The notes under the pieces: generated by a model
The model's input: the letters and a program-made list of their open reading frames with translations, nothing else
Database searches by the model: none
What the model was told of the DNA's origin: nothing
Assembly (NCBI RefSeq): GCF_027923585.1
Contig: NZ_BRPL01000004.1
Location: 124,001-188,000 of the forward strand
Length of the DNA: 64,000 bases
Direction of reading: 5' to 3'
Origin: Philodulcilactobacillus myokonensis
GTDB taxonomy: Bacteria; Bacillota; Bacilli; Lactobacillales; Lactobacillaceae
Shown here: positions 19,490 through 40,675 of the stretch, piece after piece
How the letters are laid out: every line of letters starts with the position of its first letter
Numbering within the stretch: the stretch's first letter is position 1
Program-made: the position numbers and the translations under genes

Positions 19490-20653
19490 TTAAAGTAGTT
19501 TTAAGAAAATTGATGCAATAAAAACTGAAGCAACGGAAACGGTAGCAAATCCTCCCACTACCATTTTAGGCATCGTGTGATCCATGATGTATTGGTATTC
19601 ATCAACATTTGAAGCGACATTATGAGCTGCTTCTCTAGTGACAATGTAATCTGCTGGGAAACCAAATAATGCAGTTAACGCACATGCAAAAGCCATTGAT
19701 TTAGATAATCCCATTGGTTTTGCTAATAAGAAAGAAACCACAAACATTCCAAAAATTCCTAATGCAATCATTGTAATGATTGGAACTAACATTTTAGGTA
19801 AATTGGAAGGTTTAACAACGTTTAAATCTGAAAAAATGTAAATTAATTCTGCGTACAAGAACCAATTAAACACACCCGATTTTTCAAGAACATTACTTTC
19901 TAAAAGATGAGCTTGATGAGCAATTACCCCTAAAATCAATCCGATCACGTAAGGATTGATGACATTATGAATTAAATTGGAAATTTCAAATGAAATTAAT
20001 CCAATTAACAAAACTAGAAAAATATTGAAAGCAGCTGTCCGATATTTTTCAGGAATAAAAGGTTTTAAGGTGTCTTTCTGCTCAATTTTACTATGACTTC
20101 TAACATTTTGATTTGATCGAAAAATACCAATTAATCTTCGGTCTTCCTTTTTTAATAGAAAAGCAGTTAATGGATAGCCAATAATACTATGAACAACAAA
20201 CATTGAGGTCGGGAAAGCAATTAAATCCATGATATGTTGTGCTCTTAATCCATTTGCCATTAAGAATGCCGCAACAATGCCACCTGTTAATGGTGGAACA
20301 CTAGCAATGACTACTTTCCAGCGGAATAGTAATAAACCAATTCCTAGTGCTAAGATAATGGTGCCTAAAACTCCACAAAGAGCAATAACAACAACCTTCC
20401 ATTGATTAATTAGCGTTCTTAAATCCATTAATGTTCCCATGTGTACAATGATGGCTGACATTACAATTGTCATAAATATTGGATCAAAACTAGCAATTTG
20501 AACGATATTTTTTGGAAAAATAGTCCAATATCCAATTAAGAACATCATGGCAGTTACGAATACGGACGGAACATAGGCCTTAGTAAATTTAGAAATCCAT
20601 TCACCGACGAACAAACAAAACATTAATTCTGCTAACGCAAAAATATTAACCAT
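19490..20653 (-). CDS. Putative Na+-coupled permease, GltS-like
   Basis: About 387 aa with 10-12 membrane helices. Motifs resembling the glutamate:sodium symporter fold are PPLTGGIVAAFLMANG and, in the second half, MVVGGFATVSVASVFIA; each half contains a GG pair. I use ATG 20653 because AAGGAGGA lies just before it inside the longer frame (start 20674). It is 27 nt upstream of the amidohydrolase gene in one operon and may import that enzyme's substrate. Confidence 0.7.
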   Translation of the reverse strand: MVNIFALAELMFCLFVGEWISKFTKAYVPSVFVTAMMFLIGYWTIFPKNIVQIASFDPIFMTIVMSAIIVHMGTLMDLRTLINQWKVVVIALCGVLGTIILALGIGLLLFRWKVVIASVPPLTGGIVAAFLMANGLRAQHIMDLIAFPTSMFVVHSIIGYPLTAFLLKKEDRRLIGIFRSNQNVRSHSKIEQKDTLKPFIPEKYRTAAFNIFLVLLIGLISFEISNLIHNVINPYVIGLILGVIAHQAHLLESNVLEKSGVFNWFLYAELIYIFSDLNVVKPSNLPKMLVPIITMIALGIFGMFVVSFLLAKPMGLSKSMAFACALTALFGFPADYIVTREAAHNVASNVDEYQYIMDHTMPKMVVGGFATVSVASVFIASIFLKLL

Positions 20654-20865
20654 TATTGATTTCCTCCTTACCAATATCCATAAGGGATTATTAACAAATT
20701 ACATACTTTAATCACACTTCTCCTTTTATCATTCGTATTTATCAAATAAATAAATGTATTTTAATATTAATGTTTATATATATTTATGATAATACGAATT
20801 AAATTAATGTAATTATATATTATATTAGATAATAATGTCAATACTAATCGAATTTTAATTTAATG

Positions 20866-20905
20866 AATAATAAAACCATATTTTTTAAATATGGTTTTAT
20901 TTTGT
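20866..20905. terminator. Hairpin downstream of pepT
   Basis: 15-bp perfect arms (20869-20883, 20887-20901; core AAACCATATTT) with a 3-nt loop and T-rich flanks; it ends the pepT transcript. Confidence 0.8.
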
Positions 20906-20945
20906 TTATTATGTTAATGTAACTTTTGACAATTAACAAAATTAT

Positions 20946-22187
20946 TTAATTTTCAGCATGAAGCTTTAAAATATTAATTACAACTTCAGCCAATTTTTCC
21001 ATTCCTTCAACGCTAACGTATTCATAAGGTCCATGGAAATTTCCACCAGCGTTAAATAAATTGGGCGTTGGAATCCCCTTTGGTGTAATGAAATTTCCAT
21101 CGGTCCCACCACGAAATGGTTGAACATTTGGTTTTAATCCTGATTGTTTATAAGCTTTTAAAGCCAGTTCAATAATCATAGGATACTTCTTAATTACATC
21201 CCCAATATTATGGTACTGTTCTACTAATTTTAAATGAATTCGTGGTTTTTGATATCGACAATTAATATTATTAATGATTAATTTCAAATATTTTTCCTTA
21301 TTATGAAATTGTTTTGTATCGAAATCCCTCAAAATAAGTTTTAATCTAGCGTGTTCGACCGTTCCATCAGCGTGGGTGATTAAATGAAATCCATCATAAT
21401 TCTTACTGTACCGTGGCACATCATAATGATCCAATTTATCAATTAACTCGTGCATTAAAGCAATTGCACTAACCATCGTTCCGCAAGAGCTTCCCGGATG
21501 AACTGTCGTCCCTTGAAAAGTGATTTCAGCTTGGGAAGCATTAAAAGTTTGGTACTTAAAATCACCTGGTGCACCATTATCCAACGTATAAGCAAATTTA
21601 GTATTAAATTTCTTGGCGTCGAATTTTTTAGCACCACGACCGATTTCTTCATCAGGACCAAATGCAATTTTAAACGGGCCATGTTTAATTTCAGGATGTG
21701 CTTTTAAGCTCTTTAGAGCACCAATTAAAGCAGCGATGCCCGCCTTATCATCCGCTCCCAACAAAGTGGTTCCATCACTAGTAATCAATGTTTGACCTTT
21801 AAATTGATTTAATGCCGGAAATTCATCTGGATCCAAAATCAGGTGTCGATCTTGGTTAATCAATAATTTCTGACCGTCATAATTATGATGAACTTCTGGA
21901 TTCAAATTATCAGCTGGAAAATCGGCCGTATCTAAATGCGCAATAAAACCAATCGGTGAAACTTGATGTTTAATATTACTAGGCACACTAATTGTGACGT
22001 AACCATTAGCTTGATCATACTCAACATCTCTGATTCCCAATTGATTTAAATCATCCATAATCACATGAGCTAATGTAACCTGCCCCCTTGTCGTTGGCGT
22101 TGTCTTACTATTTGGATCGGAACGCGTATTGATTCGACAATACTTGATAAATAATTTTTGAATTAATGCGGTATCAATTGATGACAT
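20946..22187 (-). CDS. pepT: Peptidase T (tripeptide aminopeptidase)
   Basis: Dizinc M20 aminopeptidase releasing the N-terminal residue from tripeptides. 413 aa with metal/active residues in AHLDTAD (about 84), GADDKAGI (about 145), PDEEIGRGA (about 177) and FRGGTDGNF (about 357). Ribosome site AGAAGGAG precedes the ATG. A complete T-box leader lies upstream with no gene between, so transcription should rise when a particular tRNA is uncharged, an unusual control for a peptidase. Confidence 0.95.
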   Translation of the reverse strand: MSSIDTALIQKLFIKYCRINTRSDPNSKTTPTTRGQVTLAHVIMDDLNQLGIRDVEYDQANGYVTISVPSNIKHQVSPIGFIAHLDTADFPADNLNPEVHHNYDGQKLLINQDRHLILDPDEFPALNQFKGQTLITSDGTTLLGADDKAGIAALIGALKSLKAHPEIKHGPFKIAFGPDEEIGRGAKKFDAKKFNTKFAYTLDNGAPGDFKYQTFNASQAEITFQGTTVHPGSSCGTMVSAIALMHELIDKLDHYDVPRYSKNYDGFHLITHADGTVEHARLKLILRDFDTKQFHNKEKYLKLIINNINCRYQKPRIHLKLVEQYHNIGDVIKKYPMIIELALKAYKQSGLKPNVQPFRGGTDGNFITPKGIPTPNLFNAGGNFHGPYEYVSVEGMEKLAEVVINILKLHAEN

Positions 22188-22277
22188 TATTAATGACTCC
22201 TTCTATTTTGCATATTTAACATCATGAAGAAAACACTTTACCCAATTTTCATTATCAAATCTCCCCTTTGATAAAAT

Positions 22278-22525
22278 AAAAAAAGCATCCACCCTTTCAA
22301 TCGAAAGGGCGAATGCTTCGCTGTGCCACCTTTATTCATAGGTTATTAAATAACCTATCTCATTTCAGAACAAATCATCTTATTCCTAGCGCGATATCGG
22401 GCGCACCCGTTGTAGTTTTCGCTACCCATAAACTCAAAGACCATTTCAAATGCTGTCAATCACTTGTTTCCACTAATCACAAGCTCGCTGATCATTTCCA
22501 ACATCTTACTTATCTCTTCATTGCT
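22278..22525 (-). promoter_or_regulatory. T-box riboswitch upstream of pepT
   Basis: On the minus strand: stem I with AGTAAGATG and the conserved AGCGAGC, T-box core AAGGTGGCACAGCG (plus strand 22319-22330 covers GGTGGCACAGCG) and a terminator AGCATTCGCCCTTT/AAAGGGTGGATGCT with T7 (22278-22317). Aligned to the two Arg leaders of this window, the specifier falls on AUG (22442-22444; context GAA-AUG-GUC). The core reads UGGC, which predicts a tRNA with G73 and does not fit ordinary tRNA-Met (A73). A one-base shift would read AAU (Asn, G73). Confidence 0.88.
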
Positions 22526-22547
22526 TAATTAATATTTCATTAATTTT

Positions 22548-22575
22548 ATTATAATTTAATTATAATAAATGTCAA
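22548..22575 (-). promoter_or_regulatory. Promoter of the pepT T-box transcript
   Basis: Minus-strand TTGACA (22570-22575), 16-nt spacer, TATAAT (22548-22553): both consensus hexamers perfect. Transcription would start near 22541, at the foot of the T-box. Confidence 0.85.
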
Positions 22576-22583
22576 ACAACATC

Positions 22584-23525
22584 CTATTCATCAACATATT
22601 CTTTAATATGATTAACTTTATCCTGGATGAATTTTGCTGAATCTGCCAATTTTTGTTGTTCACTATCGGTAAGATCAATGTGCACTTGTTCGATTAACCC
22701 GTTACGACCCAGAATAATTGGGTATGACATATAAGTATCATATTTATAACGGTAATTAGAAACGGGAACTTCAGTTCTAGCATCGTTCATGACAATGTTA
22801 ATCAGTTTGCAAGCTGCTGAAGCAATTGCATAGTTAGTGTAGTGTTTCCCTGCAAAAACGGTATATCCTCCAACTCGAACAGATTGTTCAACTTTTTTAA
22901 TTGGGAAGTGGTAAGCTTCAGCCATTTCAACCACTGGCTGATCCTTCACTTTAATTGTCGACCAAGCTGAAAATTGGGAATTACCGTGTTCGCCCATGTT
23001 ATATCCACTCACTGACCTTGGATCAACATGAAATGCTTCATCCACTGCTCGTTTCATTCGTGCGGAATCGAGCATTGTTCCTGTTCCAATTACTTTATGC
23101 TTCGGAAATTCTGAATACCTTTGAAAAATAGTTGTCATCACATCACAAGGATTAGTAATCACAATCACAACGCCATGAAATCCAGCTTCCTTAACTTTTT
23201 TAGCAGCATCTTTCACTTCAGGTATGTTCAGCCTGAATTCGACAAACCGATCACCATAATGTTTTGGATCCAATTGGGCTTTAATATGACCAATTGAACA
23301 AATCACGATATCAGCATCACCCAATGCAGAATAATCATTCACGTAAATATTAGTATGATAATCAAGATTGGCTTGAGCATCCCGAAAATCCAATGCATCC
23401 GCAATTAACTTATCCTTATTTTTATCAATCAAAACCAAATCATCTGCGTAGCCATTATGAACAATGCAATGTGCGATGGTGGAACCAACGTGTCCCATTC
23501 CAATAATGCCAATTCTTCTAGTCAT
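22584..23525 (-). CDS. L-2-hydroxyisocaproate dehydrogenase (L-LDH family)
   Basis: NADH-dependent reduction of branched-chain 2-oxo acids to L-2-hydroxy acids; relative of L-lactate dehydrogenase. The sequence follows the known HicDH closely: GIIGMGHVGS (NAD site), DRFVEFRL (substrate Arg region), ITNPCDVMT, IGTGTMLDSARM and the catalytic GYNMGEHGNSQ. ATG 23525 is chosen since GGAGGAAA lies inside the longer frame starting 23540. 313 aa. It recycles NADH and forms flavour hydroxy acids from leucine. Confidence 0.9.
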   Translation of the reverse strand: MTRRIGIIGMGHVGSTIAHCIVHNGYADDLVLIDKNKDKLIADALDFRDAQANLDYHTNIYVNDYSALGDADIVICSIGHIKAQLDPKHYGDRFVEFRLNIPEVKDAAKKVKEAGFHGVVIVITNPCDVMTTIFQRYSEFPKHKVIGTGTMLDSARMKRAVDEAFHVDPRSVSGYNMGEHGNSQFSAWSTIKVKDQPVVEMAEAYHFPIKKVEQSVRVGGYTVFAGKHYTNYAIASAACKLINIVMNDARTEVPVSNYRYKYDTYMSYPIILGRNGLIEQVHIDLTDSEQQKLADSAKFIQDKVNHIKEYVDE

Positions 23526-23582
23526 TTTAATTTCCTCCATTCAAAGTAATCATCATTAGTAATTCATATCATGTCAAAACAA

Positions 23583-40148: not shown

Positions 40149-40400
40149 AAAAAAGCCCACTTGGAAAAATTCCAAGAGGGCGAATGTAATTCACTGTGCC
40201 ACCTCAATTTCCAATTGACTCACATCAATTGGCTTAAGAAGTTATTAACTTCAGCGATAACGGGCTAGCGATGATTCCTAATTCATTTCGGAATCGAACT
40301 CCCAGGCACGATTTAATGATTATCATCCCAAGGTCTCATCAATCCTAAGGTTTCTGTTATGAATTACCATTAAAATTCCTGTTCATTGTTCTTCTAAATT
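40149..40400 (-). promoter_or_regulatory. T-box riboswitch 1 (Arg), argG-proximal
   Basis: Minus strand: stem I ending AAAT-CGU-GCC-UGGGAG with specifier CGU (Arg) at 40308-40310, T-box core TTGAGGTGGCACAGTG (40192-40203 covers GGTGGCACAGTG) and terminator GCCCTCTTGG/CCAAGTGGGC plus T6 (40149-40181). UGGC predicts tRNA with G73. It lies just before argG. Confidence 0.93.
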
Positions 40401-40423: not shown

Positions 40424-40675
40424 AAAAAATCCCCTTGAGCAAAATGCTCAAGAGGACGATTTAATCGCGGTGCCACCTCAATTTCTAGTTGATTCACATC
40501 AACTAGCTCAAGAAGTTAAATAACTTCAGTGGTAACGCAACCAGCGGTTTTTCTACTTTGTTTTCGAGAAACGATTCACAGACACGATCTAATGAACATT
40601 ATACTTAGTCCCATTTCCCTAAGCTTCCTTCTAATAATGTTTCATTAAAATTTCTGCTCAACATCTTTATTTCTT
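40424..40675 (-). promoter_or_regulatory. T-box riboswitch 2 (Arg), promoter-proximal
   Basis: Minus strand: specifier CGU at 40584-40586 in AGAU-CGU-GUC-UGUGAA, T-box core GAGGTGGCACCGCG (40466-40477) and its own terminator TCCTCTTGAGCA/TGCTCAAGGGGA with T6 (40424-40456). Closely resembles T-box 1, so a tandem duplication. Both must read through for argG expression. Confidence 0.93.

Follow-up and report, generated by a model that had tools for sequence, protein, structure and literature searches.

A probable methionine T-box riboswitch ahead of pepT in Philodulcilactobacillus myokonensis, in a genome where the bulge C often faces A73

The window considered here, a stretch of 64,000 nucleotides from Philodulcilactobacillus myokonensis (contig NZ_BRPL01000004.1), carries on its reverse strand the gene for peptidase T (pepT, 20946..22187, 413 aa), recognized by NCBIfam TIGR01882 at 480.8 bits (cut-off 285.75) and as Peptidase_M20. 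The protein is closest to the copies of Secundilactobacillus and Lentilactobacillus, at 54–58% identity, and no second pepT is found in this genome at E 1e-60. Upstream on the same strand lie a T-box leader RNA (RF00230, 22302..22530) and, ahead of it, the promoter TTGACA-N16-TATAAT (22548..22575), sigma-70-like by consensus match alone, with 12 of 12 consensus positions. A lactate-dehydrogenase-family gene (22584-23540, reverse strand) ends about 9 bases ahead of this promoter; the terminator scan listed no terminator between the two, so the T-box terminator may end that transcript as well. On the other side of pepT, a hairpin with a U-rich flank (20870..20900, reverse strand; fold of 20870-20945, z -4.28) is the probable end of the pepT transcript, the A/T-rich structure not being among the calls of the terminator scan. 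As the gene after pepT has a second perfect promoter of its own (20841-20812, reverse strand), co-transcription of pepT with the transporter and amidohydrolase genes that follow, which was considered, is unlikely, and the T-box switch probably governs pepT alone. The 394-aa membrane-protein-like ORF at 19490-20674 (reverse strand), which has its own perfect promoter and is followed by an amidohydrolase-family gene, matched nothing in Pfam or NCBIfam at 0.001.

The leader aligns to model positions 1-219 of 219 with 96.4 bits (E 6.2e-20), and thereby passes the curated gathering score of RF00230, 93 bits. Its parts, a Stem I with the specifier, an F-box region, an antiterminator with a UGGN bulge and a terminator, follow in RF00230 order, which is also that of the Bacillus subtilis tyrS-type T-box. 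The bulge reads UGGC (22325..22328, reverse strand), with C at 22325 as its variable base N according to both sequence and alignment; its UGG lies between helices A1 and A2, where it is able to pair with CCA (AAAGG-UGGCACA-GCGAA...UUCGC-CCUUU in the RF00230 alignment). The antiterminator competes with a terminator ahead of the pepT coding region, a hairpin of 17 pairs followed by a T-rich tail (22282..22319, reverse strand), and the 82 nt around it (22262-22343) fold with z = -4.82 against 200 shuffles. Two copies of the core motif RGGTGGNACMRCG are present in the window, as opposed to none in 100 dinucleotide shuffles. The pepT leader is a real, intact RF00230 T-box, and the original prediction of a perfect promoter and a full T-box ahead of pepT is borne out by the promoter match and by the full-length alignment above the cut-off.

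The specifier is placed by the covariance model at AUG (22442..22444, reverse strand), in the context GAA-AUG-G, which is one base short of the consensus GAA-n-XYZ-R; this is the methionine codon that had been proposed from the letters alone, and the RF00230 alignment retains it. In a single-sequence fold, itself non-significant (z -1.53), AUG is unpaired beside the lower helix. The short form of the loop also occurs in the leuS leader of the same genome (GAA-CUC-G), and in one relative (G034) a leader, L405, combines GAA-AUG-G with a UGGC bulge as the pepT leader does; the ORF behind it, identified by eye, appears to be methionine-synthase-like.

The relationships of the pepT leader also point to methionine. 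When it was aligned with 38 other leaders, its nearest neighbors were those of metQ (70.4% identity), the first of two luxS leaders (luxS1, 65.3%) and an S-methylmethionine-permease-like gene (64.6%) from the same genome, the next being at 53.4%, and the four form one clade with support 100/98 in a tree whose bootstrap values are not fully settled and whose deep forks are weak. The genes behind its clade-mates, metQ, luxS and the permease-like gene, are methionine-supply genes, and the antiterminator core GGUGGCACAGCGAAGCAUUCGCCC is common to all four leaders; as one clade with a shared core, their bulge C is best counted as one event. The specifier-loop strand of the pepT leader is one base shorter than in these three. 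Compared with the RF00230 consensus, the pepT leader has C facing tRNA base A73, UGGCACA in place of UGGNACC, and a G-C pair closing helix A2 where the model has G-U. The UGGCACA bulge and the G-C closure (within 22309-22328, reverse strand, in the pepT leader) recur in its three clade-mates; the available part of a review (PMC7583486) describes the A2-closing G-U pair as the element chiefly responsible for sensing the aminoacyl group.

It had been noted that the UGGC bulge calls for a discriminator base other than that of tRNA-Met, and this is upheld by the tRNA genes of the genome. ARAGORN lists 63 tRNA genes in the stretches examined, the same number as a covariance search of the genome, and base 73, read by hand from the acceptor stems, is A in both elongator and initiator tRNA-Met as well as in tRNA-Leu, tRNA-Ala and tRNA-Arg(ACG), G in tRNA-Asn, tRNA-Asp, tRNA-Trp and tRNA-Ser(GGA), and U in tRNA-Gly(GCC) and tRNA-Thr(GGT). 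As both kinds of tRNA-Met have A73, the mismatch is real, and the pairing of N with base 73 that is usual, though not universal, for RF00230 is absent from the pepT leader. Such pairing is not what defines a T-box; in the available part of the TBDB paper (PMC7778990) it is given for the majority of cases. By the same hand reading, tRNA-Ser UGA and CGA (L147 1243-1330 and L145 104-191) appear to have U73, as opposed to G73 in Ser(GGA) and Ser(GCU).

In all, 27 T-boxes were detected in the genome with E up to 0.1; N, taken from alignments and a bulge-reading script, is U in 14, C in 11 and A in 2. First genes were named by NCBIfam for ten (MetE, MetQ, two MetN-like, LuxS, S-methylmethionine-permease-like and AsnS among them), several of these below curated cut-offs; valS, leuS, pheS, hisS, serS, argS, alaS, glyQ, trpS, thrS, ileS and argG were named by reading ORF starts. 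C faces A73 in 10 of the 16 T-boxes with an assigned A73 tRNA: those of leuS, alaS, metE, metQ, one metN, the permease and pepT, the first luxS leader and both members of the argG tandem. U faces A73 ahead of valS, pheS, ileS, argS and the other metN and in the second luxS leader. The remaining 11 T-boxes fall outside this count: four face G73 with U, a wobble (asnS, trpS, serS and hisS, the last read as Asp), two face U73 with A (glyQ and thrS), and five have no assigned tRNA (two brnQ-like, one hpaH-like and one nhaC-like with U, and the L023 permease with C). The C:A73 mismatch, odd as it is, is genuine and is a property of the genome, not a peculiarity of the pepT element. In the tandem before argG (40173-40395 and 40449-40670, reverse strand), both elements have a bulge C and CGU as the likely specifier; the tree pairs them as sisters (100/100), and the second scores 83 bits, under the Rfam cut-off. 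The two Met T-boxes in tandem before luxS (L018 1164-1409 and 1501-1733; C4:110368-110937) are unlike each other, the first combining AUGG with UGGC and the second AUGA with UGGU.

In related genomes the base is mostly U. Among leaders with a recognized bulge, N is U in 26 and C in 2 of 28 leuS leaders and U in all 28 alaS leaders (each from the best 29 of 60 family genomes), and U in 13 and C in 1 of 14 metE leaders from the survey of 60 family genomes. Together, C is found in 3 of 70 relatives' leaders versus 3 of 3 here (Fisher p 3.2e-4; this and the following p values are descriptive, since the tests assume independent elements and use a grouping made with the data already in view). In this survey 4 of 74 loci (one leuS, one alaS and two metE) had no recognized bulge and were left out, and relatives were sorted by gene and not by individual specifiers. 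A comparison with six relatives gives C in 1 of 35 assigned A73 elements (pheS of G034) versus 10 of 16 here (p 6e-6), A73 status in the relatives being taken from gene matches of at least 45% identity to the A73 list of this genome and not from their own tRNA genes. Elements without such a match or without a recognized bulge were dropped from this count; had L405 (Met, C), which is among those dropped, been kept, the relatives' figure would be 2 of 36. If the Met group of four leaders and the tandem before argG each count once, 6 of 12 remain here (p 5e-4).

A Met T-box (GAAgAUGAG, N = U) lies 1.7–2.3 kb upstream of pepT in 5 of 23 named loci of relatives, and the four of these that were tested with Rfam were all RF00230-positive; at the pepT loci L059 and L060 there was no RF00230 match. 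The gene between T-box and pepT is oppA-like, with SBP_bac_5 in both of the two tested, and the T-box-oppA-pepT order is the same in relatives G013 and G020. That oppA is missing from this genome, where the three matches reach just 26–32% identity, and a T-box directly ahead of pepT was found neither in 29 other top-ranked pepT loci (one of them, L158, with about 200 bases upstream) nor among 60 further pepT upstream regions, this genome being the one member of its genus covered. As this genome is without that oppA, its T-box-pepT arrangement looks like a shortened form of the known T-box-oppA-pepT design, and oppA was presumably lost from such an operon. Read by eye, a four-codon ORF (ATG-AAA-ATT-GGG-TAA, 22238..22252, reverse strand) follows a Shine-Dalgarno-like stretch where oppA would start, and may be a remnant of the oppA start or a chance occurrence. 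The tree does not group the pepT leader with the oppA-pepT leaders of relatives and so lends no support to direct orthology with them; gene conversion or re-use of a leader copy is left open as its origin. The peptidase had been described as tied to tRNA charging in place of synthesis or transport genes; the T-box before pepT stands, and the link is less isolated than this suggests, as the Met T-box of relatives precedes oppA-pepT.

The mismatch at base 73 had been taken to indicate that the specifier might be AAU, one base earlier, and the tRNA sensed tRNA-Asn, whose G73 would pair with the bulge C. This no longer follows, as the same C faces A73 in the leuS, alaS, metE, metQ and argG T-boxes, where the gene itself dictates the amino acid; with C:A73 common in this genome, the bulge does not favor Asn or Trp. 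The AAU frame would overlap the conserved GAA, the asnS leader of the genome uses AAC in the normal frame together with UGGU, and the pepT leader is akin to Met leaders in the tree, so that sensing of tRNA-Asn is to be regarded as extremely improbable. A shift in the other direction, to UGG one base later, restores the consensus spacing (GAA-A-UGG-U for GAA-n-XYZ) and would let G73 of tRNA-Trp pair with the bulge, which is why predictors requiring a base-73 match, as under the TBDB rules in the available part of PMC7778990, would favor it. The trpS leader of this genome, however, carries UGGU, the relatives' oppA-pepT leaders have A after AUG and hence UGA, which is no Trp codon, and both the clustering with the metQ, luxS1 and permease leaders and the C facing A73 in leuS and alaS speak against a tRNA-Trp sensor, which is very unlikely. 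The pepT leader shares 47.4% identity with the trpS leader and 44.7% with the asnS leader of the genome and is grouped with neither.

The C facing A73, the loop one base short and the lack of a T-box immediately preceding pepT in the other genomes examined could also be signs of a leader in decay, which would switch poorly and leave pepT mostly constitutive or mostly off. Promoter, helices, terminator and reading frame are all intact, however, and leuS and alaS, whose expression the cell needs, carry the same C, leuS with the same short loop; decay is accordingly improbable. The full RF00230 match with AUG, the intact promoter, antiterminator, terminator and pepT, the kinship with Met leaders, the Met T-boxes on oppA-pepT in relatives, the like pairing of GAA-AUG-G with UGGC in L405 and the C facing A73 in nine other T-boxes of the genome argue for a transcriptional, Met-specific T-box riboswitch with pepT as its first gene, which is the reading that very probably applies, while the non-standard C:A73 pair, which lies outside the TBDB model as far as the available part of PMC7778990 goes, stands against it, as do the shortened specifier loop, the separation from the relatives' oppA-pepT leaders in the tree and the lack of a second such T-box among the genomes examined.

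In the Met-specific switch so proposed, the CAU anticodon of uncharged tRNA-Met would pair with the AUG specifier when methionine is short, and its free CCA end with the UGG in the bulge. This would let the antiterminator form; pepT would be transcribed, and peptides in the cell would yield methionine. Charged tRNA-Met would lack the second contact, and transcription would stop at the terminator. Judging from the sequence, the leader should bind the tRNA and induce pepT on methionine starvation, with C:A73 presumably tolerated, possibly in the form of a weak A-C contact by which the threshold for induction is raised. An acidic pH as the reason for such a contact, or an edited A73, would be further conceivable explanations. 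It is possible, though doubtful, that the lineage has shifted to a variant reading of the tRNA end, with C facing A73 in many T-boxes at once; this may take the form of a protonated A-C wobble or of a contact deliberately weakened to raise the induction threshold. If so, the bulge base would no longer predict the discriminator base here, and predictors that rely on this rule would misassign such leaders, the pepT leader to Trp for example.

A Met T-box on a slightly unusual first gene is well supported. With it, a peptidase joins the Met T-box regulon, and the degradation of peptides in a lactic acid bacterium is tied to the charging of tRNA-Met. The discriminator-base rule, by which T-box annotation selects the specifier frame, can break down in over half of a single genome's assigned A73 T-boxes, which makes the weight of the N:73 pair in T-box function a testable question. 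According to the available part of PMC7778990, N mostly forms a Watson-Crick pair with base 73, wobble being the one deviation allowed, and G:U pairs occur in the Trp family; no statement on C:A73 T-boxes was found in the available parts of PMC7778990, PMC3771891, PMC6004538, PMC2494555, PMC7583486 and PMC4695836 or among the literature matches listed. A T-box before pepT was likewise not among the literature matches listed, which is weak evidence of absence. In Lactobacillus paracasei FAM18149, six Met T-boxes likewise have an AUG specifier and a methionine regulon (metE, metQ, yxjH-luxS), but pepT, the first gene here, is not among the genes listed in the available part of that work (PMC6004538). 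For L. delbrueckii, the available part of PMC3771891 tabulates a Met T-box with oligopeptide transport behind it, to be compared with the oppA-pepT arrangement. Secundilactobacillus, Lentilactobacillus and other relatives resemble the present case in having AUG and a pepT of the same clade under a Met T-box; in all of these oppA lies between T-box and pepT and N is U, whereas here this oppA is missing and N is C. The Staphylococcus aureus met leader is alike in its Met specifier and methionine genes and, in the available part of PMC3771891, prefers the initiator tRNA, while in this genome elongator and initiator tRNA-Met present the same A73.
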